Below, one piece after another: positions 11,242-63,762 of a stretch of DNA of 64,000 nucleotides. The notes beneath the pieces were generated by a model. It was given only the letters and a program-made list of their open reading frames with translations, had not been told where the DNA came from and ran no database searches. Each line of letters starts with the position of its first letter. The stretch's first letter is position 1. The stretch comes from Isoetes taiwanensis. Taxonomy: Eukaryota > Streptophyta > Lycopodiopsida > Isoetales > Isoetaceae. Position numbers and translations under genes: made by a program. The DNA lies in NCBI GenBank assembly GCA_021234155.1, contig JAJEKV010000014.1:16154872-16218871 (forward strand). The letters run 5' to 3'.

Positions 11242-11272
11242 AACCATCATCCAATTAAATTGGGATTATGTC
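11242..11272. repeat. Left terminal inverted repeat
   Basis: Starts AACCATCATC and matches the reverse complement of 23615-23645 over about 31 positions with two mismatches. Just inside lie the half-palindrome aatcacgcc (11281-11289) and a T-rich stretch (11318-11340). Confidence 0.8.
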
Positions 11273-24661: not shown

Positions 24662-25626
24662 TGTGACGGCCCCAGCTCATATACGATGCCCCGCCCCTCC
24701 AGAAGCACCCATGCCCTTCATAGGCGGCTAGAAGCCACTGCTCTTATTCGACTTCAACTCACTGGAAGGTGACGCATCACCCCACGAGTGTCGAGCTCAT
24801 GCCTTGCCCACACGCGGTGACAAGCCATTAAGCCTAGCCCGCAGAGACCCCCGGTAGGCTTTACACACCAGAGGGGTCAGTCTGTGTAGGGACATGTTCT
24901 TCCTTATCAGCCGGTCGGATCCCTCCACCCACACCCAGGCGGGCTCCTGTGCACGGGCCGCATTAATTGGGAATTAATGGCCTAAAACTAGGATCATCCA
25001 ACTACTTGGGCTCTGGGTCTCTACCCCCGTTCCCAATACACAAGAGTGGCGCATAGAATGTCAAAGCATCATCACAACAGAACTGAAATAATGGAATACA
25101 TCTATTCTAATCTACCTAATCATACATGGTTAGGTTCCTTTGTTAGTGTCTATCATTCTTAGGCTGTAGGGGTCGCCTATAGCTAAGAATGAATACTAAT
25201 CCTATGGAATGAGGGCTGAAAACTCGGATCTAACTATCGGATCAACCACTAACCGGCTTCCTGGCTGGCTCCCACTCCTCTGAAAGCGTCCATGCTGCTG
25301 GATCTCGAGACTGCTGGTCTTGGATCGAGCTGCAACCTAGGAATTCCGATTCCTCTGCTACTCTTCAGGCGAAATGGCGTCCAATGCTGCTACAATCCGA
25401 CCTATAGGGGCTGGAAATCGAAAGGGTTTCCCTTTTTAGGGTTTATGTCCCTTTATCCCCCACGAATTTAGGGCTAGGCCCTTTTGGTCAATGGGCTCAC
25501 AGGGTTGTACCCTAGGGTACTACCCCTTTTATGGTCGCTGTGTACATGTCGTCTGAGTCGACATGTACTAGTGACGTGTCAGTATAATATACGTATTCAT
25601 ACCGTATATTATTCTGGAACGTCACA
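24662..25626 (-). repeat. 3' LTR of the Ty3 element (965 bp, internally deleted)
   Basis: Begins TGTGACGGCC and ends ACGTCACA. Compared with the other LTR it lacks a block of about 545 bp after CATATACGATGCCCCGC and a 60-bp block before CTCACAGGG; elsewhere it is nearly identical. Confidence 0.9.
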
Positions 25627-26408: not shown

Positions 26409-26945
26409 CTACGTAGCGTCTTCCACTGGTAAGTGCGTCCATTTCACAAGGTACTGGAGAAATTGAGATCTTCTCGTCTTCTTATAGGATCGGTCGAGAA
26501 GAAGCTCAGGGACAATCTCAAGTTGATCGTCCGTTAATTCCAGTAAACTCGGTGTCTCCAATACTTCCTCTGGATTAGGAGTGTGTTTCTTTAGGAGACT
26601 TACGTGAAAGACTCTATGGATCTTCAGGTGTGCTGGTAAGTCCAATTTGTAGGCTTGGTTGCCCACTCTTTTGACAATTTTGAATGGACCAGCCCACCTT
26701 GGAGCAAGCTTCTTGCAATTGCCGATGCGGAGCTTTGCTTATTTGACTTTTATCTTCAGCCAAACATCGTCCCCTACTTGGAACTCCCTTACTGTTCGGT
26801 GCCGATCAGCTATGCTCTTTTGCCGGCTTCTTACTGCTGAGAGATATCCTCGCACCTCCTCAACCAATTGTTGCATCTCGGCTAACATCTGCTGGGATAC
26901 TTCTACCTTGGACACGGGTTGTGCCAAGTGTCTGGTGTCAAGCAC
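26409..26945 (-). pseudogene. Integrase C-terminus and chromodomain (frameshifted)
   Basis: Two frame pieces. The first (26945-26739) reads LVEEVRGYLSAVRSRQKSIA and FQVGDDVWLKIKVK. The second (26666-26409) reads NQAYKLDLPAHLKIHRVFHV, SLLKKHTPNPEEV and a chromodomain start RRSQFLQYLVKWTHLPVEDA. The LP..L.IH.VFHVS.LK box is the integrase GPY/F-like tail. Chromodomains on chromovirus integrases bind methylated H3 tails and steer insertion to heterochromatin (family knowledge). Confidence 0.85.
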
Positions 26946-27673
26946 TGATAGCCGTAGTTGATCATAAACGGCGACATTTGGGATGACTCTTGCTTGGTGC
27001 TATTGTATGCAAACTCAACCAAGTAGATGAAGTCATCCCACTTTGATTGCTTGTTCCAGACATAGTTCCGCAACATATCCTCAAGTATCCGATTGGTGCG
27101 CTCCGTCTGCCCATCTGTCTGAGGGTGATAAGCCGAGCTCATCGACAATTTTGTTCCGATGGTGCTGAAGAGATCCTGCCAGAATGCACTCATGAACTTC
27201 GAATCCCGATCAGAGATTATTTCTCTTGGCATCCCATGGAGTCTAAAAATCTCCTTTGTGAATAAAACAGCCGTGTCTAAAGCCGTGTCGGTGCTCCTAC
27301 AAGGCACAAAGTGCGCCATTTTTGACAATTTGTCGACTACGACCATTAAGGCGTCTTTGCCCCTTATGGTTCTAGGGAGCCCTGTAATGAAGTCCATGCT
27401 GATTATCTCCCACTTGGAGTTTGGTACTGGCAATGGCTCTAATGCTCCTGGAATTCGTAGTTGTTCTGCCTTGGTCTGCTGACATAGCTGACACTCACGT
27501 ATATACCTTGCTATCTGCTTCTTCATGCCTGGCCAATAGTAACTACTTCTTATCTTGAAGTAGGTTTTCGTAAAGCCTGCGTGGCCGGCTATTGGGCTGT
27601 TGTGGGTGTCATGGAGAATCAGCCTTCTGACTCCAGATGATTCTGGCACACACAACTTATTTTTATGGTACAA
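26903..27673 (-). CDS. Integrase (zinc finger and catalytic core)
   Basis: Starts in the frame after a shift near 27715: [51 protein letters not shown] (HHCC finger). The DDE core follows: [11 protein letters not shown] (first D), [14 protein letters not shown] (second D) and [20 protein letters not shown] (E). It breaks after TPDTWHNP. It joins element DNA into the host chromosome. Confidence 0.88.
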
Positions 27674-29928
27674 GAGGTTTCCTTCCTTCTTAAAATGTTT
27701 GAAGGCTTCTCTCTCTTTGTCCGTTCTTGCCTCTTTAGAAAGGCTTGCCCATACTTCCTGGAAGTCCTTGTCCGTTGGCAGCGTAGCGTTTCTTCTATTT
27801 TCTTGCCAAACTCACTGGTAAGTGTTGATATGGCATTGCAATGCACTCTTGTTGTTAAGGGGTGTCTTGACAGAGCATCTGCAACCACATTGAGTTTCCC
27901 TGGCTTGTACACAATCTCGAAGTCGTACTCTTCCAGGAACTCCATCCATCTTCTTTGCCTCAAATTCAACAATGGTTGCGTAAAGATGTACTGTAGACTC
28001 TGGTGGTCGGTATCTAATTGGAACTTTCTTCCCAATAGATAATGCCTCCAGATCTTTAAAGCTCTTACCACTGCCAATAGCTCCTGATCATGTGTCGGGT
28101 AGCGAGTCTCTGCGTCATTCATCTTCCGTGAATCGTATGCTACGACTCTTTCTTCTTGCATTAAGACTACTCCCGTCGCAATCTTGCTAGCATCGGTTGC
28201 AACTAGCTTGTCCTTCTCTGGATCAGGCAATGTTAAGACGGGGGCGGTTGTTAAGGCTTCCTTCAACTTCTCGAATCCTGCTTGAGCCTTCTTTTGCCAA
28301 TGTGCCACCCAGTCTTTTATCTTTTCTGCCTTGGTGAGGTCCGTCAAAGGTGCTGCTATCTTAGCAAAATTCTTGACAAACTTTCTATAATACCATGCTA
28401 AGCCCAAAAAGCTTCTCACCTCGTGTATGTTCTTTGGTGCTGGCCATTCAATCACTGCTTGGATCTTTGCGGGGTCGGTGGAGATGCCGTCTGCTGATAT
28501 GACATGCCCCAAGTATTCCACTCTTTCGGTGGCGAAATGACATTTCGACAACTTCGCATAAAGCTGGTGTCTTCTCAGCTTCTCAAGTACCCTTCTCAAA
28601 TGTTGAATATGCTCCTCTAGGGACTTGCTATACACTAAAATGTCATCGAAGAACACGATAACAAATGTGTCAAGAAATTCCCGAAAGATATCGTTCATGA
28701 GTCTCATGAACGTTGCTGGGGCATTAGATAAGCCGAATGGCATCACCGTGAATTCATAGTGGCCATATCTCGTCCGGAACGCTGTTTTGTGAATATCTTC
28801 CTCCTTGATTCTGATTTGATGATATCCAAACCTTAAGTCTATTTTGGAGAAGACTCTGGCACCTTGTAGCTGATCCATCAGGTCATCTGCTCTTGGTAAG
28901 GCATACTTGTTCTTGATGGTGTGTTTGTTTAATTGACGGTAGTCAATACACATCCTCAAGCTTCCATCCTTCTTCTTGACGAATAAGATGGGGGCTCCGA
29001 ACGGAGAGACACTAGGCCTTATGAACCCTAGGTCTAACAGCTCTTGCAATTGCTTCTTCAACTCTGATAGTTCGTGAGCCGTCATTCTATATGGTGCCTT
29101 ACTCGTGGGCTTAGTGCTTGGTTCGAGTGCAATTTCGCACTCCACTCCTCTATATGGCGGAAGCTCCTTGATTTTATCGGGGAACAAGTCATGGAACTTA
29201 TCTATTAGCTTGGCTACCTGCTTGGGTAGTTTGCTTACTGGTTTATCTTCTTTATCTTCTGGTGCCTCTTCTTCGGCAAGTTCTAATTTGAAGATGTATG
29301 CAACTTGCTCCCTTTTGATGCATCTATGTAACTTCTTACTCGACATGCATTGCATTATAGGTGTCACTTGCTTACCTGTGATTTCTATGATTTTCCCGTT
29401 GGGCGTTGTGAGCTTCACCTTCCGCTCTCCACAATCTATTTGTGCTTTTGCCGGGTAGAGGTATTCCATACCTATGATGAGGTCATATTTTCCGATGTTC
29501 ATGATCTCTGCCCCCATTTCGATATTGATGCCAGGTAAGTCTATATTGAAATTCACCCTCTTGCCGGCAGTGTGTCTGATGGCTCCGCTAGCTAACACTA
29601 CTGGCCTGGGCTTAGACTTCACTGTTTTCAACTTTAGCATTTCGGCCATCTTTGGTGATGCGAAATTGTGGGAACTGCCACAGTCTATGAGGACTATAAA
29701 GGATTTGGCGGCTATCTTACCAATTGTGGATATTACTTGGTACTGGCTCTCTGTGCTTTCTGTATCTATGGCGGCAAAGATGTGACACTCACCATGGATA
29801 AAGTCGCGTCCTTCGTCCTCCTCTTCTTCTGTCGGGGTCTCCCAATCTCCCATCTCCGCAAGTGCTGCATTCATCACGAACGGGCAGTTGTATGTTCTAT
29901 GCCCCGGCTGGAAGCACCGGAAGCACAA
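27619..29928 (-). CDS. Pol: zinc knuckle, protease, reverse transcriptase, RNase H
   Basis: Follows gag in the same frame after one TAG. Domains in order: zinc knuckle [14 protein letters not shown] (residues 2-15); aspartic protease [18 protein letters not shown] (DCG in place of DTG/DSG); RT with [40 protein letters not shown] and [14 protein letters not shown] (FFDD catalytic box); RNase H with [36 protein letters not shown] and TDHQSLQYI. The frame drifts off after [12 protein letters not shown] near 27715. The RT makes cDNA inside virus-like particles; the lineage matches plant chromoviruses. Confidence 0.92.
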
Positions 29929-31188
29929 CTATTTTTCTATACATTCCTGCCGCTTTTCTTTCGGAATGGAGTTGAGGAACTGCTTGATTGTCTTTGAATA
30001 ATTTGAGCCTCCCCCTTGTCCTTTATCTTTGAAGCTGACCTGCTTTTTCTCTGGCTGTTTCCATTGATTTCCCGTGTATGGTGTCTTGGCCGGTGACGGA
30101 CTGGTTGCTCTCGGGCTCTGGCCTCCATACGCTTTTCCTTTGTCATACCACTGCTTGGGTTCATTTTTCTGGGGTCCTGTCCCTTGTAGGCTCACGACCT
30201 TTGCTTCTGCCTCTGATACTGAGCGCGGGTTCAGGGCTCTAACTATCTTCCGTAGATCCTCATTCAGGCCCTCCACATAGCCTTCCACCGCTCTTCTCTC
30301 GCTGAGTTTTGGCACATACAGCCTCAACCTCATGAACTCTTCCGTATATTTCTGTACGGATTTGTTCCCCTGTTGCAACCTGTGGAATGCTTGCATCTGA
30401 TGGCACTTGTGCTCTCTTGGGACATAGTGTCGTTTGAAGGCCCTTGCGAACTTTGTGAACCTACACTTGTCCCTGCTCATACCATGGGCTTTGGCATAGC
30501 CCCTCCACCAAATACGGGCTGCCCCTTTCAAGTTAGCGGTGGCTACTCTGCCCTTGTCTTTGTCTTTCATGCCGTAAGCATTTCCGTACTCGCTCATCTC
30601 GTCTAGCCATGCTTCAGCTTCCATCCCTGATCTATTTTCGCCGAAAAACTGTTCCAGCTTGCGGGCTTTCCACACGTTACTCAAGGCCGAGTCGACCTTC
30701 TTCTGGTATTCGGATTGACCTGGCTGTTTTGCCGTTATTCTTTCTTCCCTTCGGGCGGTTCTTCCTGTTTCATCCTCAGACTCAGAGCTTGAGTCCGAGC
30801 TGTCTGAAGAGCTGGAGCTAGAAGATCTGCGCCGACTCCTCTTTTTCTCTTTTCCCTTGTGCTGAGAACAGGCCTCTGGGGGCTGCACATTCTGGTCCTG
30901 CCTGTTTCTTCTCCTGCCCGCCAACATGGCTTTTATTTCTTGCAGATCTGACCTCATCTGCGGAATTTCTTCCTCCGGCGTCGGTGCGTAATACTCTTCG
31001 AATAGATTCCGAGGCTGGAATTGTCCCAGTGGTGTCTGATCGCCTTGGGCTTGGAATTCAAGGTCGACATTCCTGGCTGTTCTAACTGCACATATTACAT
31101 TAGCACCATTTATCATGAGTTCTTTTGTTGGTTGCATTAAGTGTTTGAATGATATGATTGTTAAGACAAAGATACATTTAAAATGCAA
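29929..31188 (-). CDS. Gag (capsid) polyprotein
   Basis: The start at 31188 may lie upstream of the true exon: a good acceptor (ATATGTGCAG) precedes VRTARNVDLEFQAQGD near 31085. After an SR/acidic linker (KKRSRRRSSSSSSSD) comes the retrotransposon gag domain: WLDEMSEYGNAYGMKDKDKG, ARIWWRGYAKAHG, FARAFKRHYVPREHKCHQMQ, FHRLQQGNKSVQKYTEEFMR and AVEGYVEGLNEDLR. It ends at an amber codon 29931-29929 directly before the zinc knuckle. It packages the RNA. Confidence 0.88.
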   Translation of the reverse strand: MHFKCIFVLTIISFKHLMQPTKELMINGANVICAVRTARNVDLEFQAQGDQTPLGQFQPRNLFEEYYAPTPEEEIPQMRSDLQEIKAMLAGRRRNRQDQNVQPPEACSQHKGKEKKRSRRRSSSSSSSDSSDSSSESEDETGRTARREERITAKQPGQSEYQKKVDSALSNVWKARKLEQFFGENRSGMEAEAWLDEMSEYGNAYGMKDKDKGRVATANLKGAARIWWRGYAKAHGMSRDKCRFTKFARAFKRHYVPREHKCHQMQAFHRLQQGNKSVQKYTEEFMRLRLYVPKLSERRAVEGYVEGLNEDLRKIVRALNPRSVSEAEAKVVSLQGTGPQKNEPKQWYDKGKAYGGQSPRATSPSPAKTPYTGNQWKQPEKKQVSFKDKGQGGGSNYSKTIKQFLNSIPKEKRQECIEK

Positions 31189-31270: not shown

Positions 31271-32788
31271 TTACTGATGGGATGGGTGATCCTCAAGGAA
31301 TTTCTTCACTTGGGCTGTACCCACTGTACGTCCCAAGTTCCAGAGTATATCCCTGGATGATCCCCCTCGGATAGCTAATGCTAGCTCTTCGACTCGTCTA
31401 TCGGAGGTATGAGCTGCTGTTACTGCCAACCGACCTTGTCGAAGGTGAGGTACCGCGAAGTCGAAAATGCTCAAAGCTGTCCTTCGCTTCACTAGAATTA
31501 CATGGTCGACTTTTTCCGATAGGCGGGCGTGCATACCAAAACCAGATAGTGCTATCAGCATCTGGATGGCTTCCTCTCCACGTGGACTGAAAAGCTTATG
31601 AAATACTATTATTCTGCCATCAGTAAGGAGCGGAAGATAGTATTTCAGTGCTGCTCCGGGTATTCCTCCCCGTGCTCCCGAGGTAGACCTGTGCCTTGAT
31701 GCATGCTGATCGACCGGTACTTGAACTAGTTCTTCGTAATCATGGAAGAGCGTTCGTACACTTGTTAAGTTCGTGGCTCTCCCTTGGAACGTTGGTAATG
31801 GTTCTTGTGAAGAAGATTCTGGTAATAGTACTCTTGTTGTCTTCCCCCTTATTCCCATCTGCTCTTGGAGTGCCACAAACTCCTCCTCTGTAGGGAGTTC
31901 TTCCGTCATCATGCCTCTGATAGAGCTATAGGCTTCGATGTCTGACATGTTGTGTCTTGTGTATGTGGCTGCTTCTCTTACTTGGACTGGAAAGTCATCT
32001 GTTTCTTGGTCGATGAAATCTTCTAAGTCCCGCTGTTGCCGTAGAAGGTGAAGGAGTTCGTCGACGCGATAGCCTCTGTCCCTGCATTCGGGAAGGTTTT
32101 TGATGTCGTTTAGTAACAAATATTCCTGACCTTCGACTATGATCGGCGCTAAACTTGTTATTCCCAGCCCGATTGGTTGTGCAATCCTTGGAGTGGTCCT
32201 GTCAGCTTCGAAGTGGGTAATATCTTGTTCTGCTTGACGGCGTTCTTCATCCGGATCCACTTCCATCTCATCTTCACTTTCCCCCTCTGAGTCCTCACTT
32301 TCTTCGGATGATTTCGCTATGGCCTCTTCGTACTCAAGCAGTAGTTGTTCGTCTGCTCCTGCGTCCAAGGGTGTGACCTCTAGTGGCTGGATTGATGGTT
32401 CACCTACCACGGTTTGGGCCCTATAGAATAAATATAGTGCTAAGGCTGTGTTGTAGGAGAAAAATCTCTTTCTATTACTACTCAGGGTCATGTAATTGGG
32501 CAGGCGCTCGGTTCTATTCTGCAGCAATTTCGCTATGTTGGGTATATGGCTAAGGGTTGTTTGCAATACAGTCTTTGGTACAAAGTACCCTATGCATGGG
32601 GGTACTTCTTGCAAGCTAGGAGCTAGTTTCTCTTGGAATTCTTGCAGAACTTGCTGGTAGAAGGGGTTGGAGTTCAAGGTTGCCGACAAGTCAAATTCTT
32701 TCTGGAAAACTTGAAATACTAGGTTAACATCTACCTCAGCAACGTGGGGAGAGGCGATGTACCAGCTGATGAAGGATGAAGTAGCCAT
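31271..32788 (-). CDS. Conserved accessory ORF of the H3-bearing Ty3 elements
   Basis: An intact 505-codon frame. I do not recognise a domain. An acidic Ser/Glu stretch (about residues 155-190) is followed by PIIVEGQEYLLLNDIKNLPE. The C-terminal half has GAALKYYLPLLTDGRIIVFH, KLFSPRGEEAIQMLIALSGF and VDHVILVKRRTALSIFDFAV. Aligned parts occur in the 410-codon ORF at 58566-59798 (VIYHQGQEYLLLDDI; HLTRFFLSAFRHGQVLFMAR; YVLVRRDLAMM), so the protein is conserved between two element lineages. It lies between the H3-like ORF and gag, with AT-rich spacers on both sides that look like introns or UTRs. Role unknown; position and conservation suggest a structural or chromatin-related accessory protein (inference). 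Confidence 0.75.
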   Translation of the reverse strand: MATSSFISWYIASPHVAEVDVNLVFQVFQKEFDLSATLNSNPFYQQVLQEFQEKLAPSLQEVPPCIGYFVPKTVLQTTLSHIPNIAKLLQNRTERLPNYMTLSSNRKRFFSYNTALALYLFYRAQTVVGEPSIQPLEVTPLDAGADEQLLLEYEEAIAKSSEESEDSEGESEDEMEVDPDEERRQAEQDITHFEADRTTPRIAQPIGLGITSLAPIIVEGQEYLLLNDIKNLPECRDRGYRVDELLHLLRQQRDLEDFIDQETDDFPVQVREAATYTRHNMSDIEAYSSIRGMMTEELPTEEEFVALQEQMGIRGKTTRVLLPESSSQEPLPTFQGRATNLTSVRTLFHDYEELVQVPVDQHASRHRSTSGARGGIPGAALKYYLPLLTDGRIIVFHKLFSPRGEEAIQMLIALSGFGMHARLSEKVDHVILVKRRTALSIFDFAVPHLRQGRLAVTAAHTSDRRVEELALAIRGGSSRDILWNLGRTVGTAQVKKFLEDHPSHQ

Positions 32789-33196
32789 GAGGAGGAGCGT
32801 GCTGCCGATATCAAACAGAACTGGAAGCGCTTGAGGAGGCTGGAAGATCGCCTTGGGCGCAGGAGCAACTTTGTAGGTGTGGTTGAGAGGTTATGGGGAT
32901 ATTTATAGGGATCTTGTACCCTAAAAAATTTAGGGTTTCTAAAACTTTTGGCATTTGGAGATGAAGTTGAATGTTTCTAGGTTAATTTGGGGCTAGAAAT
33001 GGCTTGTATACAATTTTAGGGTTCTAATGCAACAAATTTCGACCGAATTGGATAGGTCTATCACAAGTTATGGACCTTGAAAGGTCGGACCCCTCTAAGA
33101 GTGCGCGAGGAGGGTGTTAGGTTGGGACCTAAGTGGCCTCTGGCGCAGTCTTGGAGGTGTTGGCCTACCTATGCCCAATGGGTGCCAAGAACAAGT

Positions 33197-34219
33197 TTAA
33201 AAAGGTGAATTCCTCCACAAAATTTCTCGGACGAACCTCTGGAATGGAGCTCTGGGAATCAGAAATCCATAGCTCCGTTGGAAGTGGCGGATTTCTCGCA
33301 GGGCCCTCGCAAAAGGGGAGTCTTGGGATCTCTTCATAGGTTTCTTCGGGGGCTCCGGGAGCTCTGGTGGAGGTATCAGCTGGAATGCCTCTCGTGTTGG
33401 CCGCCCTCCTTCGACATACCTTACCCTGTGTGCCTCGTAGTATGCAGTGTGCTCGGCGTGCATCTTTTTGTATATAGTGTAGTCTGCTAGCTCCTTCTTG
33501 TATCTCCTCTCGGGCCCTAGAGTGTAAGAGTCCCTGGCCGTCTTGTTTGCCTTCTTTGCGGTTGTTTTCTCCTCACCTAGCTTCTTTGCCTCTTGCCATT
33601 CTGAAAACGGTGGAGGTAGCGGCGGGGGTAGCTCAACTTGCGTCTCTGCCTGGTCTTGGGCTGGGAGTGGGTCCTCCTCTTGGGGTTCATCTGTATCAGG
33701 AAGAGGGTTCTGCTGCTTCTGGGAGGATTCTCCAGTTCCTAGAAGTACTTCTTCCAAAAAGTCCTGCAGATTACCGGATTCCTCAGACGAGGATGGAGGT
33801 TGGTCGCCTTCGGTTCGTTCGCCGATGACGACGCCGACTGAGGTCCTCCTTTTCTTGGGCCGGGGTTCTTCTGTCATTACCCTTTTTCCTTTCCTGTCAG
33901 GTTCCTCCCTATTCTTTGTCCTCTGCTCTCGCCATTGGTCGTCTTCCCCTTCTGCAGCTTCTTCTTCCGCTTTCCTTCTCGCCTTCTCCTCATTTCTCTT
34001 GGCCTTTTCTTCCCTTTTCCTTGCCTTTTCTTCTTTCTTCCTGGCTTTTTCTTCTTTCCTGCGCCTCTTTTCCAAGTTCCGATAGTACCTAGGTCACCTC
34101 TCCATGTCGGCCTTCAGTTTCTCATCCGCATCTTTGAGCTTCTGTTCGGCGGCGAGGACTTGGGCGCTGGGCTTATCATCCTTCTTGGGCTTACGGGCGG
34201 TCTGTTTTGTTCTAGCCAT
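33197..34219 (-). CDS. Histone H3-like protein (H3 tail + coiled linker + H3 alphaN/alpha1), one in-frame TGA
   Basis: ATG at 34219-34217 opens MARTKQTARKPKKDDKPSAQ: the first ten residues are the canonical H3 tail with K4, R8 and K9, while S10 is Pro. After 41 codons an in-frame TGA (34096-34094) occurs, and the same frame continues as a Lys/Glu-rich coiled segment (KEEKARKKEEKARKREEKAK), an acidic/Pro linker and YKKELADYTIYKKMHAEHTA. It ends SPFARALREIRHFQRS then YGFLIPRAPFQRFVREI (33210-33312). The end matches H3 alphaN and alpha1 (ALREIRxxQxSxxxLIxxxPFQRxVREI). The frame stops before alpha2/alpha3, so no full histone fold is present. Upstream, the same frame is open to 34447. It sits where no Ty3 element normally has a gene. 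I infer capture of host H3; the function may be chromatin mimicry. Confidence 0.85.
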
Positions 34220-34447
34220 TGTGTGACAGCGTTCAATTCGGAGCAGGGCGCCAGAAGATCGGCTATCGGAAGGAGCTCGCAGAATCACGTGAGAAACCCT
34301 AAAAAATGAGCCTACGTCCCGTAATTTATAGGGTTTAATTTTTAGGGTTCGGTCGAATTGGTCATCTTGTTGTTTTGCTGGCGAAACTCTCCCCACCTTG
34401 AACCCAAGTGGAGTCTTCTTCAACCATCTTCCCTCAAACCCCTCCAA

Positions 34448-34781
34448 GAGTGCGCGAGAAGGGGGTTAGGTCCGGACCTAACTGGCCCCTGGCGCACCCT
34501 TAGAGGTGTGGTCCTGTTCTGCCCTAAACATATCCAATTTACACTAATGAACATGCGTTTCCCACTAATGTAAGTATTCTAACTCGATTCTACTATTTAT
34601 TTCACACTTTGAGTTTGTGTTGAGTAATTTCTAAGGTCATTTTTAGGGGACCCCTCCAAGAGTGCGCGAAAAGGGTGTTAGGTCGTGACCTAACTATGCT
34701 CTGGCGCACTCTTAGGGGTGTTGCTCTAAGTTGACTTTTATTTAGTGTTTTTCTGTGTTTTTCTGGTCTGCCAAGATCAAA
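34448..34781 (-). other. Leader of the Ty3 element
   Basis: Non-coding sequence between the primer binding site and the H3-like ORF. Three copies of a 'cccctccaagagtgcgcga(g/a)aaggg(t/g)gttaggt' block (near 33090, 34438 and 34650) recur in this leader and in the spacer below the H3 ORF. They could be structured RNA or packaging elements (inference). Confidence 0.5.
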
Positions 34782-34793
34782 GCTCTGATACCA
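34782..34793 (-). other. Primer binding site (tRNA-Met type)
   Basis: The minus strand reads TGGTATCAGAGC, one base from the 5' LTR end. This is the common initiator-methionine tRNA primer site of plant LTR retrotransposons and it fixes the element's orientation. Confidence 0.92.
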
Positions 34794-34794
34794 T

Positions 34795-36367
34795 TGTGAC
34801 GGCCCCAGCTCATATACGATGCCCCGCTCGTATACAAACTGGAGATCATCCCTCAAACCAGCATCTGACCGCTGATGTGAGGCCGTCCACCTAACATCGG
34901 GCCCTCGATGGTGGCCAAGAACCCGACGGGGAGGAATGGACGTGTCATTCATCCCGTCTCCCTCGGGATCGACCTAGCAACGGAAGCGTAAACACACATG
35001 AGCACATGACATAAATCAATAATAGCATACCCACCTCGAAGGGCGGTCCACCATATCACAGTAGCTGCAACAACACATCAGTACATCAACATAACATGGG
35101 GAAATCCTACCCAGGCCTAGACTCATGGGGAAAGACTGACGGCTTGGGCTCCCAGATAGCAATGCAGACAGAATTCATGGCAAGTGGATTTGGCTGGCAT
35201 AGGAACATGGTCGTTGGGTAGTCCACTCTATCCGCCCCTCCCGTGCACACTTTGCAGAATAGGTTGAAAAGCTTTGGGACCTAACCGTAGCCTGCCGGGT
35301 GAATAGCCAGAGGGGCTACTACTACTGGGTTGCATCTCCCCAGCCCCGATGAGGCAGGAGGGAAGTCACCTCCCCTCCAGAAGCACCCATGCCCTTCATA
35401 GGCGGCTAGAGAGCCACTGCTCTTATTCGACTTCAACTCACTGGAAGGTGACGCATCACCCCACGAGTGTCGAGCTCATGCCTTGCCCACACGCGGTGAC
35501 AAGCCATTAAGCCTAGCCCGCAGGGACCCCCGGTGGGCTTTACACACCAGAGGGGTCAGTCTGTGTAGGGACATGTTCTTCCTTATCAGCCAGTCGGATC
35601 CCTCCACCCACACCCAGGCGGGCTCCTGTGCACGGGCCGCATTAATTGGGAATTAATGGCCTAAAACTAGGATCATCCAACTACTTGGGCTCTGGGTCTC
35701 TACCCCCCTTCCCAATACACAAGAGTGGCGCATAGAATGTCAAAGCATCATCACAACAGAACTGAAATAATGGAATACATCTATTCTAATCTACCTAATC
35801 ATACATGGTTAGGTTCCTTTGTTAGTGTCTATCATTCTTAGGCTGTAGGGGTCGCCTATAGCTAAGAATGAATACTAATCCTATGGAATGAGGGCTGAAA
35901 ACTCGGATCTAACTATCGGATCAACCACTAACCGGCTTCCTGGCTGGCTCCCACTCCTCTGAAAGCGTCCATGCTGCTGGATCTCGTGACTGCTGTTCTT
36001 GGATCGAGCTGCAACCTAGGAATTCCGATTCCTCTGCTACTCTTCAGGCGAAATGGCGTCCAATGCTGCTGCAATCCGACCTATAGGGGCTGGAAATCGA
36101 AAGGGTTTCCCTTTTTAGGGTTTATGTCCCTTTATCCCCCACGAATTTAGGGCTAGGCCCTTTTGGTCAATGGGCTATTGCCACATGGCAAAAGATATTA
36201 TATTCACATGTTGCCTTAACATGTGCAATATAATAGCTCACAGGGTTGTACCCTAGGGTACTACCCCTTTTATGGTCGCTGTGTACATGTCGTCTGAGTC
36301 GACATGTACTAGTGACGTGTCAGTATAATATACGTATTCATACCGTATATTATTCTGGAACGTCACA
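34795..36367 (-). repeat. 5' LTR of the Ty3 element (1573 bp)
   Basis: TGTGACGG...CGTCACA ends. It retains the 545-bp and 60-bp blocks missing from the other LTR. The 60-bp block (36177-36236) is itself an imperfect inverted repeat around ACATG/CATGT with TATTATAT arms. It should hold the element's promoter; a TATATTATT/ATATAA region lies near 36326-36355. Confidence 0.9.
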
Positions 36368-44210: not shown

Positions 44211-44223
44211 AAGGTGGGGAGAA
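44211..44223 (+). other. Polypurine tract
   Basis: AAGGTGGGGAGAA directly before TGTGACG of the LTR. Confidence 0.85.
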
Positions 44224-50724: not shown

Positions 50725-52322
50725 TGTGACGCTCCCTGAATATATACGACCCCCGGCCGTATACATACGGGGACTTTCCCCTCCCATGGCGACCATCGCG
50801 CCAGGAGCAGGGCCCTCCATCTAACCCGGGCCGTCTACGTAGAGACGCTCAGGTGAAGGACACGGAGGGGTCATTCGGCCCACGCCTTCGATGGGCGCCT
50901 ACGTCGCGGAAGCATGAATACAAGGGTTAGCACACAGCATAAATCACATATAAATAACCACCACGAAGGGTGGCACATCCATCCAAATACCAACGGCAAA
51001 GAATATGCATCTAAGACTAAGAAAACACCCAAAACCCAGGTTCTACCCCTACCGGACTCTAGTGGGGAGCGATCGATTTCTTTGGTCTCGTGGAGATCGG
51101 CAGACCGAATCTTGGCATGGTGTTGGGGCATAGAACATCGGCTAGGGTTGTCCACTCCATCCGCCCCTCCTGTGCACACTTTGCGGATGGGTCGAGTCAC
51201 GCCATGGCTTCGCTTATAGCCTTGGGAGACGTAGACTCTAGGGATCACCCTTTGAGTCTACTCCGTGTTCATGACACTGGTTCGATGAGGCGTGGTCGGG
51301 GAGGCGCCCCTTCCGGGATCACGCGGTGGTGTCGTGGGTGAGCTAGAGAATACGCGGCCGCTACAAATGACCCCCCGCGATCCGTGCAGACTTACTCACC
51401 CTAATTCTACTCAAAGTGCATGGTGCCCCATACGGGTCACACCACTACACCTGTGGAGTGTCGGACCCATACACGGCCCTCCACGTGGACCGGCCATCAG
51501 GCCTAGCCCCATTGTAGGAGTCTCGGGGAGCTTTTTATGCTCGTGCAAGACCCCACCCCTACTTCACCATCTTTGTGTCCCTTGTCCTGCGGTGCTAAGC
51601 CGCACCATAGCGTCTATGACCCGGTGGGCTCTTGTGCACAGGCCGAATCTAGTAGGGCATTTAAGGAAGTACTAGGAGCATTCTATACTTGAGCTCGTGA
51701 GGCCTCTACCCCCTTTTAACCCCTCAAGCATGGAATTTCTTGAACTAACTCATAGAGACATCGACCATTCCATATGAGCATCATTCATAATTGAACAATA
51801 TTCCTAGTTACCAAAGAAGGGTTAATCGAACCAAAGCTAGTCGACAAGAACACCAAAGTATTATTCTACAAATTGCAAATTAAACTACCAGCGACCGGTT
51901 GTTTCGGCTAGAGCCGTTGTCAAGGGTGCCTCCATAGTGTCTTTGTCTTGGGGTGGCAAAGAAGCGGTTAAAGGGTGTCTTGGCGATTAGCAGGTTCAAA
52001 GAATTGGGCCCCGAGCTTTAGTCGCTTCTCACAGCCGGTTGGGTCGAAATTGGGGTGAGATGGGGTGGGTATCGGTCACTTGGTGGCTTGGTTTAGAAAC
52101 CCCCATGCTAGCCACCCAGGTTATGCCAAATGGTGCCTTCCCACCATTAGGTGTCTTAATAGCAAGTATTTAGGTAATTATCCTTTATAATTAAGTTAGC
52201 ATAGCTAATTAAATCCATTGTGGCCAACCCCCTAGGTCAACATGCCCCATAGTGGTGTATCTATCTTGGGTGGCGTGTCAATATATTTATCATTATACCG
52301 TATAAATACTTGGAACGTCACA
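50725..52322 (-). repeat. 3' LTR of the second Ty3 element (1598 bp)
   Basis: TGTGACGCTCCCTGAATATA...GGAACGTCACA; a diverged match to 62172-63762. Confidence 0.88.
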
Positions 52323-53475: not shown

Positions 53476-54373
53476 CTAGGGGTTATGCCATGTATCTGGG
53501 GTAAGGCATTGATAACCATAATTTATCATAAAGGGGGACATCCTGGAAGATTCCTGCTTCATGCTGTTATAAGCAAACTCGACCAGATAAATATAGTCAG
53601 CCCATTGTGATTGCTTACTCCACACATAACTTCTTAGCATGTCCTCTATAATGCGATTGGTCCGCTCTGTTTGGCCATCTGTTTGAGGATGATATGCTGT
53701 GCTCATAGCAAGCTTGGTCTGAATGGTGGTAAAGAAATCTTTCCAGAATGCTCTCACAAATTTGGGATCCCGTGTAATCTGGTAAAGAAATCTTTCCAGA
53801 ATTCGACACAATTACTCGTGGCATTCCGTGTAATCTGAAGATTTCCTTGGCGAAAAGCAGAGCAGTATCAAAGGCTGTATCCGTGGTACGGCATGGCAAG
53901 AAATGAGCCATTTTGGACAATTTGTCGACCACAACCATTAAGGCATCATATCCTCGGAGAGTTCTTGGAAGGCCCACAATGAAATCCATGGTTATTACTT
54001 CCCATTTGGCGTTGGGCACCTCCAGAGGTTGTAGCTCACCTGGGATTCTTAACTGTTCTGCTTTAGTCTGCTGGCATACCTGACACTGCCTAATGTATCT
54101 GGCAATGTCCTTCTTCATAGAAGGCCAGAAATAGCTGGAACGAATCTTAAAGTAGGTTTTCATAAACCCTGCGTGTCCAGCTATAGGGCTATTGTGCGTG
54201 TCATGAAGAATGAGTTTCCGTACTCCTGAAGTCTGCGGTACACACAACTTATCCTTGTGATATAATAAGTTGCCCTCCTTCTTATAGGCACGAAAAGCGT
54301 CGCACTCTGCATCCGTGCGAGCTTCTTTAGCCAAACTATCCCAAATGTCACAGAACTCCGGATCCGTGGCCAA
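53476..54373 (-). pseudogene. Integrase core, with a small internal duplication
   Basis: [20 protein letters not shown] and [11 protein letters not shown] (HHCC finger), ITMDFIVGLPRTLRG, then [20 protein letters not shown]. Around 53740-53810 a segment (ctggtaaagaaatctttccagaat) is duplicated and disrupts the frame at the second catalytic Asp, so the enzyme is dead. Confidence 0.85.
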
Positions 54374-54385
54374 GGTCTGCTCTAT

Positions 54386-55800
54386 CTATTTGCCAAACTC
54401 ACTGGTAAGCGTAGAAATGGCATTGCAATGGGTTCGGGTCACCAAGGGATGGCGTGACAATGAATCCGCAACCACATTGTGCTTGCCAGGCTTATACATA
54501 ATCTCGAAATCATACTCCTCCAAGAATTCCATCCATCTTCTTTGACGGAGATTAAGATTTGGCTGGGTGAATAAATAACGGAGACTTTGATGATCCGTAT
54601 CCAATTGGAACCTTCTACCAAGAAGGTAGTGTCTCCATATTCGCAGGGCACGGACAACGGCTAACAATTCCTGATCATGGGTAGGATACCGTTGCTCTGT
54701 CTCGTTCATTTTCTTTGAGTCATAAGCAATAACTCTCCCCTCCTGCATTAGGACCCCACCGGTGGCAATTTTGCTAGCACCTGTTGCCACTAGCTTATCC
54801 TGATCAGGATCGGGTAACGTGAGAACTGGTGCTGATGTGAGGGCATCCTTAAGCTGCTGGAAGCTTTGCTGGACCTTCGTCTTCCAGTGCTCCATCCAAT
54901 CTTTCACCTTTTCCTGCTTGGTGAGATTTGTAAGAGGAGCTGCAATCTTTGCAAAATCCTTTACAAATTTCCGGTAATATCCCGCTAATCCCAAGAAGCT
55001 GCGGATTTCGGAAACATTCCCTGGAATAGGCCATTCCCTTACGGCCTCTATCTTTATGGGTCTCAGAGCAATTCCTTCAAGGAAATGATATGGCCTAAAT
55101 AATCAACCTTCGGAGTGGCGAACTTGCACTTAGAGAACTTGGCATAGAGTTGATGACGTCTCAGCTTTTGTAGGGCCAATCTAAGATGTTTCTCATGTTC
55201 TTCAAGGGTCTTACTGTAGATGAGAATGTCGTCGAAGAAAATAACAACAAAATCATCCAAGTATTGTCGGAAGACATCATTCATTAGTCACATAAACGTT
55301 GCTGGGGCATTAGTTAATCCAAAAGGCATAACTGTAAATTCATAATGCCCATACCTAGTGCGAAAAGTGGATTTCTGGATGTCCTCCTCCTTGATCCTTA
55401 TCTGATGGTATCCGGAGCGAAGATCAATCTTTGAGAAATACTTAGCCCCTTGTAACTGATCCATTAGGTCATCTGCCCTAGGCAAAGCATAGCGATTCTT
55501 GATGGTATGCTTGTTAAGTTGTCGGTAATCAATACACATCCTCAGTGAGCCGTCCTTTTTCTTAACAAAGAGAATAGGGGCGCCAAAAGGCGAAACACTA
55601 GGTCGGATGAAACCTAGGTTTAATAGCTCTTGAAGTTGCTTCTTAAGTTCTACCAATTCTGGAGGACTCATACGGTACGGAGCCTTGCTGGTAGGCTTGG
55701 TACCTGGTTCTAAAGCTATTTCACATTCCACCCCTCTAAAAGGAGGAAGCTTCAATCTCATCAGGAAAAAGATCACCAAATTCGCGGAGAAGATTAGCAA
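54386..55800 (-). pseudogene. Reverse transcriptase and RNase H
   Basis: [57 protein letters not shown], then [15 protein letters not shown] after a stop (ATFM*). RNase [30 protein letters not shown]. In the DAS box, the usual D reads G ([18 protein letters not shown]), a likely inactivating change. There are two frame breaks. Confidence 0.88.
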
Positions 55801-56544
55801 TCCCTACGGGAGGGCGCCGACATTTGTTTTTGCTTAGCATCCGACTCGATGGAAGCAAGCATAACGATGCAAAGGAGCTTTTCCTTGTGTATAGCTTTAT
55901 CTAACCGCCTGATGGACATAGATCGCAGGATTGGGTTGAGAGGTTCACCTTTACTTGATTCGATTACTCCGAGCTCCATTAGTCGCATTGAAGGTAACTT
56001 CTCTCTTTTCGCAGTCTATGTTCGCTTTTGCGGATGCCAGGAATTCCATACCAACAATGAGGTCATATTTGCCAATATCCATCAATTCAGCCCCTAAAGC
56101 AACCGGTGCACCTGGGAGTTGCATGTTGAGATTGATGCGACGACCATGGGTATGCCTGACTTTACCACTGGCTAGAGTGACAGGTCTCGGACGGGACCTT
56201 AATGTTTCTAGACGTAAGACATGGGCCATCCTAGGAGAAGCAAAATTATGTGTACTTCCCGTGTCCATAAGAATTACAAAAGGCTTCCTGTCTACTTGGC
56301 CTATGGTAGAAATAACAGCAGGCTGACTTTCAGCATTGCCGGTTTCTATAGCTGCAAGGATATGAGACGCACCGTGAACGTAATCGGGAGCCTCCTCCTC
56401 GACGGGTTGTGTTGTTTCGAGGTCATCCCAATCGAGGTCGGCCATGGCCAGTTGGGCAGTCTGCGTGACATAAGGGCAATTCTGCATGAAGTGTCCCGGC
56501 CTCATACACCTGTAACATGCCTTATCTCGGCGGAGCTGTTTCAC
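55801..56544 (-). pseudogene. Zinc knuckle and aspartic protease
   Basis: CYRCMRPGHFMQNC knuckle, then VILMDTGSTHNFASPRM (DTG intact), VGMEFLASAKANIDCEKREV. The frame breaks after FNATNGARSNRIK, leading into the linker before RT. Confidence 0.82.
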
Positions 56545-57404
56545 TCGCCTCTTTAGGAATAGATCAGAAGAGGTTCGAACTTCCTTACCGGCATTGTTCT
56601 GCTTATCAGGTGCACTAAAGGTGACCTTCTTTTCCTGACAGCCATAAGAGTTCTGCTGAGAGGGTCCCGGACTTGGGGAGCGGGGTTTGTAAGGTGTGGA
56701 TGGCCGTGGCTGCGAGTAAGGCGCAGGACGTGGATACCGGGTTCTTTTGGCGTGTCCTCCTCGAGGCTCAATGCTTTAGCCTCTGCCTCGCGAATCGATT
56801 TTGGGTCTATGGCCTTAACCATTCGTTTGATTGATGGTGCCAATCCCTCAATATAGCCTTCCACCGCCCTTTTCTCATTCATACCAGGTACATACAACCT
56901 CAGGCGCATAAACTCATCCGTGTAAGCCTGCACGGACATACTCTTTGCTCCAACCTTGTAGAAAGTCGGATCTGTTGGCATTTATGAAAGACGGGGCACA
57001 TAATGCGACTTGAAGGCCTTGGCAAACTTTTCTCAAGTTGTGACGCTCCTCGTCCAAATGCTTGGCTCGCATAGCCCTTCCACCAAATACCGGGCAGCCC
57101 TCGTAAGGTTGGTGGTGGCAACCTTTCCTCAGATCTTTTCTCGTCATTCCGTAAGACTTCCCAAACTCCTTCATCTCATCCAACCGTGACTCGGCGTTTA
57201 GACCGCCTTCGGGGATTTCCCATCAAACCGGGCCAATTTCCTATTCTTCCATATACTCGTTATAGTCAGATCAACCGCCTTACGGTACTCTTTGTCTCGG
57301 CGCTTTGCATGGTCACCACGATACCGATGAACCGTAAGATACGGAAGTGGTTGATCGTGAGGAAGTGGCACTATCTTTAGAGGAACGGGTAACGCTTTTA
57401 GCAT
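56545..57404 (-). pseudogene. Gag, frame-broken
   Basis: Pieces in three frames: YRKAVDLTITSIWKNRKLAR, MDEMKEFGKSYGMTRKDLRK and MSVQAYTDEFMRLRLYVPGM with AVEGYIEGLAPSIKRMVKAI. The frame leading into the zinc knuckle (LFLKRRVKQLRRDKACYRC) is open, unlike the amber codon at the same place in the other element. Confidence 0.78.
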
Positions 57405-58565: not shown

Positions 58566-59798
58566 TTAAGAGCTAGGTCCTCCCTCTTCACTCGTAGGCC
58601 CAGGAGGTGGTGGTGGCGGTCGGTGTCGCAGCAGAGTCACCCCGGGGTCTACGGTGGCAGCCGCAATAGATGCAACCTCTGGTGGATAGGCAACGGCCAA
58701 TGGGGCTGCCGTAAGAAGCTTCATGCTCATCCAGGGCGCGATGTCCTGACCTAAGGCCATCATGGCGAGATCCCGTCGCACGAGTACATAAGTAAATGTA
58801 CGGTAGGGGAGCTTCTTGTGCCCCAGCGTAGAGAGAGCACGGAGGGCCCACCATGAAGCTTCAGCCTCCGGACCTAAATCCCGGGCCATAAAAAGGACTT
58901 GCCCATGTCGAAAGGCTGACAAAAAGAAACGGGTGAGGTGGTTGCCCGATACCTTCCCTTGCGGGGTCTCTGATGTGGCCACCTCCTTATCCAAATCCAT
59001 GGAAACCTCCTCTTCCTTAAGTTCTTGTTGCTCCTCCTTCACATGAGCAGGATTATGATATAAATCCTCTCCCTCGTCATCTGAACCCGAGGGAACCTCA
59101 ACCATATTGATGTTTGGGATGTGAGGTCCCATAGCCGTGAAGGCATCTGGTGAGGGCTGAGAGGCCGGCTCCTGCATCACGAAGTCCCGAAGCCGTAGCA
59201 ATGTCTCGGCGGGTTCGATAGTCTCCTGGCGGAACTGGAGCAGCTGCTGCACCTCCGAAGGTAACTCAATAGAAGTAAAGTCGATGAAATCATCCATGCA
59301 ATACTCTGCAAGCTCATAAAGCACGTGGTCTTTACGCTTGCGCCTAAATCCAGCCACCATGTGATAAGTCCAGATAATATCATCCAAGAGAAGATATTCT
59401 TGCCCTTGGTGATAAATAACTGGAAGGGCATCCAGCCCTGACAAGCCTACCGCTTGCTCACGGCGCGGTGGCAGCTCTTCCGCTAGCTGCTTCCAACGGG
59501 CGAAGTCGCCCATGCCTATATGTTCGTCTTCCCCTTCCTCGGAAGACTCAGGCAGTTTGCCTTTCTCTACAGGCAAGGTTTCATCCTCGACGTACTGGTC
59601 CATGAGGATAGCTAGGGCGAAGGCGACCTCAAGGTATTGCCGCCCCTGATGCTGCACAACGGGCAGGTGTTTGCCCCATCGGAGCTTCCCCTTCAGCACA
59701 TCATATGCATGGGTGTCCCCTCCTAACATCTCCCGGACTACCTCCCGCTCCAGATATAGTTGGGGAGGATCCCCAAGAGGAATACACAGAGGGAGCAT
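58566..59798 (-). CDS. Conserved accessory ORF, second copy (410 codons)
   Basis: Intact frame. It matches the 505-codon ORF at 31271-32788 in several blocks (HQGQEYLLLDDI; acidic Glu/Asp region; HLTRFFLSAFRHGQVLFMAR; GPEAEASWWALRALSTLGHK; YVLVRRDLAMMALG). The N-terminal half has two similar phrases (VVQHQGRQYLEVAFALAILM and VIYHQGQEYLLLDDIIWTYH), hinting at an internal duplicated domain. Its intact state amid frame-broken neighbours is notable. Function unknown. Confidence 0.7.
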   Translation of the reverse strand: MLPLCIPLGDPPQLYLEREVVREMLGGDTHAYDVLKGKLRWGKHLPVVQHQGRQYLEVAFALAILMDQYVEDETLPVEKGKLPESSEEGEDEHIGMGDFARWKQLAEELPPRREQAVGLSGLDALPVIYHQGQEYLLLDDIIWTYHMVAGFRRKRKDHVLYELAEYCMDDFIDFTSIELPSEVQQLLQFRQETIEPAETLLRLRDFVMQEPASQPSPDAFTAMGPHIPNINMVEVPSGSDDEGEDLYHNPAHVKEEQQELKEEEVSMDLDKEVATSETPQGKVSGNHLTRFFLSAFRHGQVLFMARDLGPEAEASWWALRALSTLGHKKLPYRTFTYVLVRRDLAMMALGQDIAPWMSMKLLTAAPLAVAYPPEVASIAAATVDPGVTLLRHRPPPPPPGPTSEEGGPSS

Positions 59799-60156: not shown

Positions 60157-60645
60157 CTAAGGATGCTCCCCCCGAATCCTGCGGGCGAGGGCTAAGTCCT
60201 TAGGCATTATGGTTACCCTCTTTGCGTGGATCGCGCAAAGATTGGCGTCACCAAAAAGTGCCACGAGGTAAGCCTCCGCAGCCTCCCGGGTGCCAAAATG
60301 GCAAAGGTCCGAAGCCGGAGGTCGGTCTTAAACTCCCCGTGCAATCTCCGGGACCAACCTTCGGAAGGGCACCGTGATCGTAAGTCGTGGTGGACTTCTC
60401 GAACTTGGCGGATTTCAAGAAGGCCACGCACCGGTCGGTACCGATGGGGCTTCCTTTGTGGGGCGGGTTTTGTAGGCGGCCCCTTCGGTGCTGGCACCGT
60501 CTTAGCCCCCGGTCGGCCGGGAGCTATCCACTTTGCTTTGCCCGGACGGAGCTTGCCTTCTTACCAAAGGCCCCCGGGTCCTTAGTTTGTCTTTATCTCG
60601 ACCGTTAGGCCTTCGGGCTAACCCCTTCTTCCGGTGCTTAATGGT
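60157..60645 (-). pseudogene. Histone H3-like gene, near full length, frame-broken
   Basis: In order on the minus strand: a basic tail TIKHRKKGLARRPNG, then GQSKVDSSRPTGG and (shift) KTVPAPKGPPTKPAPQ. RKPHRYRP and (shift) LEIRQ follow, then VPFRRLVPEIARG (alpha1) and [10 protein letters not shown] (loop 1/alpha2 start). Another shift leads to [20 protein letters not shown] then [20 protein letters not shown] (alpha2-alpha3) and a stop at 60159-60157. Every H3 core landmark is present, in H3 order. The tail lacks ARTKQTARK in this copy; its ...KHRKK start is more like divergent or centromeric H3 tails (tentative). It lies between the primer site and the accessory ORF, as in the other element. 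Confidence 0.85.
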
Positions 60646-62158: not shown

Positions 62159-62170
62159 GCTCTGATACCA
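62159..62170 (-). other. Primer binding site (tRNA-Met type)
   Basis: The minus strand reads TGGTATCAGAGC next to the LTR. Confidence 0.85.
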
Positions 62171-62171
62171 T

Positions 62172-63762
62172 CATCACGCCTCCCAATATATATATACACG
62201 ACCCAGGTATACATGCGGGGACTTTCCCTCCCATGGCGACCATCGCGCCAGAGCGGGGCCCTCCATCTAACCCGGCCGCCTCACGAGAGGGCGCCGGTGA
62301 AGGACACGGAGGGGTCATTCGCCCACGCCGATGAAGCCTACGCATGTGAAGCATGAATACAAGGGTTAGCACACAGCATAAATCACATATAAATAACCAC
62401 CACGAAGGGTGGCACATCCATCCAAATACCAACGGCAAAGAATATGCATCTAAGACTAAGAAAACACCCAAAACCCGGGTTCTACCCCCGCTCGGACTCT
62501 AGTGGGGAGCCATCGATCTTGGGTCTCGGGGAGATCGGCCGACCGAATCTTGGCATGGTGTTGGCTGGCATAGAACATCGGCTAGGGTTGTCCACTCCAT
62601 CCGCCCCTCACGTGCACACTTTGCGGATGGGTCGAAGTCACGCTTATGGCCCGCTTATAGCCTTGGGAGACGTAGACTCTAGGGATCACCCTTTGAGTCT
62701 ACTCGGGTTCATGACACCTGGTCCGATGAGGCGTGTGGGGGCGTCCCCTTCCGGGATCACGATGGTGTCGTGGGTGAGCTAGAGAATACGTGGCCGCCAC
62801 TGGCGACCCCGCATCCGTGCATCCTAACTTACTCACCCTAATTCTACTCAAAGTGCATGGTGCCCCATACGGGTCACACCACTACACCTGAGGGAGTGTC
62901 GGACCCATACACGCCCTCCACGTGGCCCCGGCCATCAGGCCTAGCCTTTGTAGGAGTCTCGGGGAGCCTTTTATGCTCGTGCAAGACCCCACCCCCTACT
63001 TCACCACTTGTGGTCCCTTGTGCGGTGCTAAGCCGGACCATAGCTGCCTATGACCCGGTGGGCTCTTGTGCACTGTGCCTAATCTAGTAGGGCATTTAAG
63101 GAAGTACTAGGAGCATTCTATACTTGAGCTCGAGAGGCCTCTACCCCCTTTTAACCCCCAAGTTTCTTGGAATTTCTTGAACTAACTCATAGAGACATCG
63201 ACCATTCCATATGAGCATCATTCATAATTGAACAATATTCCTAGTTACCAAAGAAGGGTTAATCCAACCAAAGCTAGTCGGACAAGAACACCAAAGTATT
63301 ATTCTACAAATTGCAAATTAAACTACCAGCGACCAAGTGTTTTCGGCTAGAGCCGTTGTCAAGGGGTGCCTCCATAGTGTCATCTTGGGGTGGCAAAGAA
63401 TCGGTTAAAGGGTGTCTTGGCGACATGGAGGTTCAAGTACTGGGCCCCGAGCTTAGTCCGCTTCCCTCGGGGCCGGGTTGGGTCGAAATTGGGGTGAGAT
63501 GGGGGGGTGTATTTGTCACTTGGTGGCTTGGTTTAGAAACCCCCATGCTAGCCACCCAGGTTATGCCAAATGGCACCTTCCCACCATTAGGTGTCTTAAT
63601 AGCAAGTATTTAGGTAATTATCCTTTATAATTAAGTTAGCATAGCTAATTAAATCCATTGTGGCCAACCCCCTAGGTCAACATGCCCCATAGTGGTGTAT
63701 CTATACTGGGTGACGTGTCAATATATTTATACGTATACCGTATAAATACTTGGAACGTCACA
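62172..63762 (-). repeat. 5' LTR of the second Ty3 element
   Basis: Diverged match to 50725-52322 over its whole length. The start reads CATCACGCCTCCC in place of TGTGACGCTCCC, so its terminal bases are damaged; the end GGAACGTCACA is intact. Confidence 0.85.

Follow-up and report, generated by a model that had tools for sequence, protein, structure and literature searches.

Histone H3-derived sequence in two related Ty3/gypsy chromoviruses of Isoetes taiwanensis: a remodelled H3 in one element and a broken H3 in the same slot of the other

The window, that is the whole stretch of 64,000 nucleotides that was analysed, contains two related LTR retrotransposons that each hold sequence derived from histone H3. 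In element 1, a Ty3/gypsy chromovirus, an open reading frame (ORF) joins an exact H3 tail tip to the alphaN/alpha1 region of H3 through a long charged linker. In element 2, a near-complete but broken H3 lies in the same slot and orientation, between the primer binding site (PBS) and a gene that we call ORF2. As two related elements share the slot and the orientation, and no other H3 was detected in the window, the pair is most readily accounted for either by a capture event in their common ancestor or by a marked propensity of the lineage to hold H3. We infer common ancestry of the two H3 parts from the slot and orientation that they share; capture of H3 at the level of the lineage is very probable.

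The H3-like ORF of element 1 lies on the minus strand, which the sequence-only reading had not given, and is made up of the following parts:
34219 to 33197, minus strand: the H3-like ORF
34190..34219, minus strand: MARTKQTARK tail at the ORF start, identical to H3; start context ACAATGG
34094..34096, minus strand: in-frame TGA at codon 42, which splits the ORF in this copy
33197..34093, minus strand: the rest of the ORF, 298 codons, a Lys/Arg/Glu-rich linker leading to H3 alphaN/alpha1
33845..33859, minus strand: PKKRR stretch, seen by eye in the translation
33221..33346, minus strand: H3 alphaN/alpha1 homology (Pfam Histone PF00125, profile positions 24-65), with alpha2/alpha3 absent

The first ten residues are identical to the initiator Met and residues 1-9 of H3 (10/10). 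H3 S10 is replaced by proline and no copy of the tail continues past K9; in the tblastn alignment, 12 of the first 21 residues match H3, with 2 of the 11 aligned residues matching past residue 10. The linker (residues 11-300) consists of 13% K, 10% R and 16% E, and the PKKRR stretch resembles, by eye, a classical nuclear localisation signal. The combination of PKKRR and a K/R/E-rich linker suggests a nuclear protein. The C-terminal end of the ORF is ALREIRHFQRSYGFLIPRAPFQRFVREI followed by seven residues. This part matched the Pfam Histone family with E=2.3e-6 and 28.3 bits (cut-off 26.4) over positions 24-65 of the 122 in the profile, and its best PDB matches were H3 variants (E=1.4e-5 and weaker). 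A tblastn search with H3 gave 19/32 identical residues in alphaN/alpha1 at E=6e-7, while the tail alone reached E ~0.1. The fold predicted for the C-terminal piece from the single sequence has two helices at the places of alphaN and alpha1 (mean pLDDT 66.9, pTM 0.26), which gives weak support to this assignment. Neither tblastn with H3 nor Pfam, which matched profile positions 24-65 only, detected alpha2 or alpha3 near the ORF, and element 1 does not have the complete fold of core histone H3 (alpha1-loop-alpha2-loop-alpha3). Read from its sequence, the H3-like ORF is no complete histone. The sequence-only reading had described an ORF that opens with MARTKQTARK, ends in H3 alphaN/alpha1 in the same frame and in H3 order, carries a long charged linker between the two ends and is split by a single in-frame TGA, and all of these features were borne out.

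That this likeness arose by chance, or that a host H3 fragment was placed here without the element, is scarcely credible. The Pfam match and the exact 10-residue tail stand in one frame, inside LTRs with a target site duplication (TSD), and element 2 holds a second H3. A frameshift-tolerant scan for H3 was run on 338 chunks of 750 nt from both strands of the 64-kb window. Four chunks scored above 64, all at the element 2 H3 (316, 188 and 130) or at the element 1 ORF (103); two chunks with the element 1 tail scored 64, the highest score away from the two H3 loci was 60, and the median was 33. Other six-frame sites in the window match ARTKQTARK at 5 of 9 residues at most. Chance resemblance was rejected on the Pfam E-value, the exact tail in one frame and the scan scores. 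Beyond the two element loci, neither tblastn nor the scan detected further H3 sequence in the 64-kb window. Since the exact tail stands beside a core with 19/32 identical residues, selection on the tail is hinted at: at that rate, nine matches out of nine would have a probability of ~0.009 (our own arithmetic; the sites are not independent).

Element 1 possesses the LTRs, the PBS, gag, the order of protease (PR), reverse transcriptase (RT), RNase H (RH) and integrase (IN), and the integrase chromodomain by which a Ty3/gypsy chromovirus is recognised, and it is inserted in the reverse transcriptase gene of a LINE. Its parts, apart from the H3-like ORF, are as follows:
34795..36367, minus strand: 5' LTR, 1573 bp; TSD ATGGA at 36368-36372
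34782..34793, minus strand: PBS TGGTATCAGAGC, 3' of the 5' LTR
31271..32788, minus strand: ORF2, 505 aa, without a Pfam match; homologues in element 2 and in the protein P0001
29929..31188, minus strand: gag (Retrotrans_gag, Ty3_capsid), ended by a TAG at 29931
27619..29928, minus strand: protease, reverse transcriptase and RNase H (Pfam)
26903..27673, minus strand: integrase, in a different frame
26409..26666, minus strand: C-terminal part of the integrase with the chromodomain, cut by a stop
24662..25626, minus strand: 3' LTR of 965 bp, which is 608 bp less than the 5' LTR; TSD ATGGA at 24657-24661

The order is 5' LTR/PBS, H3-like ORF, ORF2, gag, PR-RT-RH, IN, chromodomain and 3' LTR, and the PBS TGGTATCAGAGC is presumably of the Met-initiator type. 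The two LTRs differ at 9 of 965 aligned positions (99.07% identity) and the 5-bp TSD is found on both sides, which confirms the earlier claim of a recent LTR element. The integrase chromodomain that had been claimed with it is present, but a stop truncates it in element 1, and pol is broken in several places. Element 1 is defective: besides the TAG at 29931, the frame shifts within IN and around it, and stops both precede and interrupt the chromodomain. Among these several lesions the TGA of the H3-like ORF is only one, and ORF2 is open. We observed that the lesions in gag-pol (26409-31188, minus strand) are several despite the near-identical LTRs. It may be that pol of element 1 was already dead and that this copy was mobilised in trans.

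Element 2 (50.7-63.8 kb, on the same strand as element 1) was found by comparing the window with itself, and its parts are listed here:
62174..63762, minus strand: 5' LTR, inner end approximate; the PBS starts at 62170
60166..60524, minus strand: H3 sequence with four frame changes, 76/117 residues identical to H3.3 residues 16-134
58566..59798, minus strand: ORF2 homologue, 410 aa, open
54221..57290, minus strand: gag and pol homologues, broken; against the element 1 protein, gag 40% and pol 60-68%
50725..52322, minus strand: 3' LTR, 91.5% identical to its own 5' LTR, compared from 50727

The LTRs of element 2, the older of the two elements, differ at 133 of 1569 positions (91.5% alike); no TSD was seen by eye around it. 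Its H3 reads in pieces from RKPHRYRP onwards, the last piece reaching E=1.6e-21 in tblastn, and the frameshift-tolerant score of 316 compares with 49 at most in 12 base shuffles. The C-terminal half of the fold is included, in broken form, and loop 1 has the length found in H3, not that of CENH3; the tail gave no confident alignment, and the sequence after the H3 stop is AT-rich. A further ORF of element 2, 139 aa long and without a Pfam match, lies between its ORF2 and its gag (58301-57882, minus strand). A third relative, 5'-truncated and in the opposite orientation (42551-45605, plus strand), consists of an integrase end, a chromodomain and an LTR.

A stray fragment in a single copy is unlikely because element 2, too, has H3 in this slot, in the same orientation and followed by a homologous ORF2. 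The sequence-only reading had proposed that the element captured H3, and had allowed that a fragment confined to one copy would speak against this. The first proposal stands in so far as H3-derived parts do lie inside a chromovirus, and the capture was probably made at the level of the lineage, since element 2 has H3 as well. The second is answered in part by the element 2 H3 in the same slot, but no close copy of the exact ORF was recovered in searches with its part after the TGA. It is very improbable that elements 1 and 2 each obtained an unrelated H3 retrocopy, in a lineage without an H3 gene of its own. Such separate acquisition would agree with the canonical type of the element 2 H3, with the AT-rich sequence behind its stop and with the failure of tblastn with pieces of the H3-like ORF to reach it, nothing being detectable in common beyond H3 itself. 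It is opposed by the common slot between PBS and ORF2 and the common orientation in two related elements, and by the lack of any other detected H3 in the 64-kb window. Capture by the lineage is the reading that we retain.

ORF2 of element 1 and its homologue in element 2 are 24% alike over 251 residues (BLASTP E=1e-10). P0001, a protein of 501 aa, is 49% identical to element 1 ORF2 by BLASTP and 52% by alignment; its source is a contig of 2007 bases with the label 'lgn', which we take as Logan. It was the one match of the ORF2 alignment search among the 7995 scored candidates that shared most words with the query in a set of 5.8 billion proteins. To judge by these sequence comparisons, ORF2 is a real gene family. 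No Pfam match was obtained for ORF2 of either element, and its predicted fold (mean pLDDT 49.9) was too poor for a structure search. Inspection by eye showed two units of the type LPVxxHQGxxYL in element 2 ORF2, one of which (GQEYLLLxDI) is also present in element 1.

The searches for relatives of the H3-like ORF used the part after the TGA as query, and no intact or close copy was found with it. In the 5.8-billion protein set, with candidates 0.55-1.75 times as long as the query, 0/110 reached E<=0.01 when residues 160-298 after the TGA were searched. The C-terminal 141 aa gave one of 40 candidates at E<=10, namely P0002 (E=0.25), which need not be a transposon protein. No relative was found in viral contigs, for which ORF2, pol and the part of the H3-like ORF after the TGA served as queries, or in genome contigs, for which ORF2 and that same part did; all five contig scans covered viral and prokaryotic collections, and absence from these says little about plants.

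Three direct repeats of 72 nt, each able to form a hairpin, flank the H3-like ORF, two of them in the leader and one behind it:
34650..34721, minus strand: 72-nt hairpin repeat in the leader, -36.7 kcal/mol, z -7.8
34438..34509, minus strand: 72-nt hairpin repeat in the leader, -43.5 kcal/mol, z -5.5
33089..33160, minus strand: 72-nt hairpin repeat just 3' of the H3-like ORF, -29.2 kcal/mol, z -4.6

One possibility is that these repeats are small inverted-repeat insertions, another that they are RNA elements belonging to the leader. The arm pattern, with up to 3 mismatches, was found at no further site in the window, and Rfam gave a single match on 32700-36400, with E=0.83 and far under its cut-off. 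Elsewhere in the window we observed an open ORF of 572 aa with PPR repeats (2144-3862, minus strand) and LINE-like ORFs with DUF4283 and endonuclease domains (8378-11258, plus strand), which suggest that the host is a land plant.

The centromeric variant CENH3 is targeted by a region that extends from loop 1 to alpha2. Element 1 has P63 and A65, in the stretch LIPRAPF, which occur in 3/3 plant CENH3s compared and in neither of the plant H3s, and also F54, which occurs in 2/3 of these CENH3s and in neither H3. P0002, which resembles a CENP-A-type protein by eye, shares IRHFQ and IPRA with the H3-like ORF. Element 1 shares 19/28 positions with rice CENH3 and 18/28 with H3.1. The bit scores were 28.0 for rice CENH3, 26.7 for H3.3/H3.1, 25.7 for maize CENH3, 24.8 for Arabidopsis CENH3 and 15.6 for human CENP-A, with 32.6 for P0002, and they fail to separate H3 from CENH3. 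These CENH3-type residues and shared positions would suit a protein that is derived from CENH3 or convergent on it and that steers particles or integration to sites of CENH3 or of H3 chaperones. Such a tether to chromatin is highly unlikely, given that element 1 keeps Q68 and a tail of the H3 type, that neither Pfam nor tblastn detected the CENH3 targeting region in it, that loop 1 of the element 2 H3 has the canonical length and that the bit scores leave the two histones unseparated. The alphaN/alpha1 segment itself may be of the H3 or of the CENH3 type.

The captured H3 could also be a mere passenger, that is, an H3 transcript taken up at reverse transcription and now decaying, the element 1 ORF being a useless chimera of its leftovers. 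This is a real possibility, though we consider it less likely than not. The hAT-carried H3 copies of Pseudocercospora fijiensis are described as inactivated (PMC6710886), and decay of this kind would agree with the TGA in the H3-like ORF, the four frame changes that break the element 2 H3, the loss of alpha2/alpha3 from element 1 and the lack of an intact copy in the protein searches with the part after the TGA. It is harder to reconcile with first ten residues that are exact beside a diverged core, with 298 codons that stay open after the TGA, and with the presence of H3 in both elements when their pol is only 60-68% identical.

In plants, H3K9 methylation and RNA-directed DNA methylation keep retrotransposons in check, and we know of few retrotransposon-encoded answers to this silencing. 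Residues A1-K9 of H3 with a free N-terminus form a surface for the readers, writers and erasers of K4 and K9, and an initiator Met before Ala is usually removed. In the mechanism that we propose, a land-plant chromovirus lineage would have captured an H3 gene and retained it as an additional gene near the 5' end, giving the order LTR - H3 - ORF2 - gag - pol - LTR that is seen in the two elements. In element 1 this gene would have been remodelled to encode a protein of roughly 340 residues, composed of the A1-K9 tip, the charged linker and alphaN/alpha1. The protein would enter the nucleus through the likely nuclear signal in the linker, where the free tail tip could offer its K4/K9 surface to those proteins of the silencing machinery that read or write the H3 tail, while alphaN/alpha1 may hold H3 chaperones or importins; silencing of the element would then be blunted during its expression. 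Nucleosomal H3 needs the whole fold, together with H4, and since alpha2/alpha3 are absent the H3-like protein would form no nucleosome. Its action as a soluble nuclear decoy or adaptor is a serious possibility to which we give somewhat less than even weight, and silencing enzymes are possible targets of the decoy. This reading is weakened by the TGA at codon 42 in the sole copy with the H3-like ORF, by the failure of the protein and contig searches to yield a close relative of the part after the TGA, and by the dead H3 of element 2. The fuller claim, in which the lineage encodes an H3-derived protein with a selected K4/K9 tip that serves, along with ORF2, as a decoy against silencing, is unlikely, and we know of no earlier case of a histone-based counter-defence of a retrotransposon.

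Two further roles had been suggested in the sequence-only reading, namely that the tail is bait for the element's own chromodomain and that the protein packages cDNA. The chromodomains of elements 1 and 2 and of the third copy read EIVPE...VKWTHL or VKWKHL. In PMC3350952, the group I chromodomain is described as reading methylated H3 through a cage of three aromatic residues (Y24, W45 and Y48), whereas plant group II chromodomains are without the first and usually the third of these and their interacting factor was not found. By eye, only W45 is kept in elements 1 and 2 and copy 3, which do not have the three aromatic residues of group I; positions 24 and 48 are non-aromatic, in line with the description of group II. 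The cut chromodomain of element 1 scores 23.4 against the Pfam cut-off of 25.1, a threshold that the chromodomains of element 2 and copy 3 exceed. Because only W45 is kept and no factor was found for plant group II (PMC3350952), the tail as bait for its own chromodomain is a weak proposal, and in element 1 the domain is in addition cut by a stop. Histone-like packaging of cDNA by element 1 is unlikely because alpha2/alpha3 are missing.

Mimics of the H3 tail are known from viruses, and those of influenza NS1 and similar proteins are short motifs that are not N-terminal. The likeness to element 1 is that a parasite protein shows H3-tail-like sequence to host chromatin proteins; element 1, however, has its tail at the true N-terminus of the protein, with homologous H3 core sequence at the C-terminus. 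The histones of Marseilleviridae and other giant viruses are complete histone folds. They resemble the present case in that a viral genome encodes histones, and differ from it in that element 1 is without alpha2/alpha3.

Among the matches listed from the open-licence literature, none mentioned a histone gene in an LTR retrotransposon, and a review from 2026 on how plant transposons capture genes (PMC13317346) does not use the word 'histone' in its main text. Orchid Ty3/gypsy elements are described that captured an AlkB m6A demethylase, which is active in vitro and for which a role in host surveillance was proposed (PMC9289625); these share with the present elements a plant Ty3/gypsy lineage and a captured host-type domain, and differ in that the domain is another one. 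The screen in that paper covered 121 angiosperm genomes and retained 15 extra domains after filtering, non-seed plants lying outside it. Its main text contains no 'PF00125' and uses 'histone' twice, in other senses, and its section on extra domains names no histones.

The closest precedent is the fungal hAT transposon with a captured H3. In Pyrenophora tritici-repentis, a hAT element is described with an H3-like gene, H3L, which has insertions in the tail, near-identical copies, a further unknown ORF and ESTs (PMC3538342), and in Pseudocercospora fijiensis there are hundreds of inactivated H3 copies carried by hAT elements (PMC6710886). The likeness is that a mobile element carries an H3-derived gene. 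The fungal hAT is a cut-and-paste DNA transposon with the H3 gene inside its terminal inverted repeats, and its H3-like protein has the histone fold (PMC3538342, PMC6710886), whereas element 1 is a plant LTR retrotransposon that has the tail tip and alphaN/alpha1 only, on a long linker. Transposon-captured H3 is known, and the remodelled form is what is unusual here. If the proposed mechanism is true, a retrotransposon that carries the very tail targeted by silencing makes counter-defence by histone mimicry directly testable, and shows how a histone can be dismantled and reused. Even if the H3 is a passenger, the range of H3 capture would be widened from fungal DNA transposons to plant retrotransposons.
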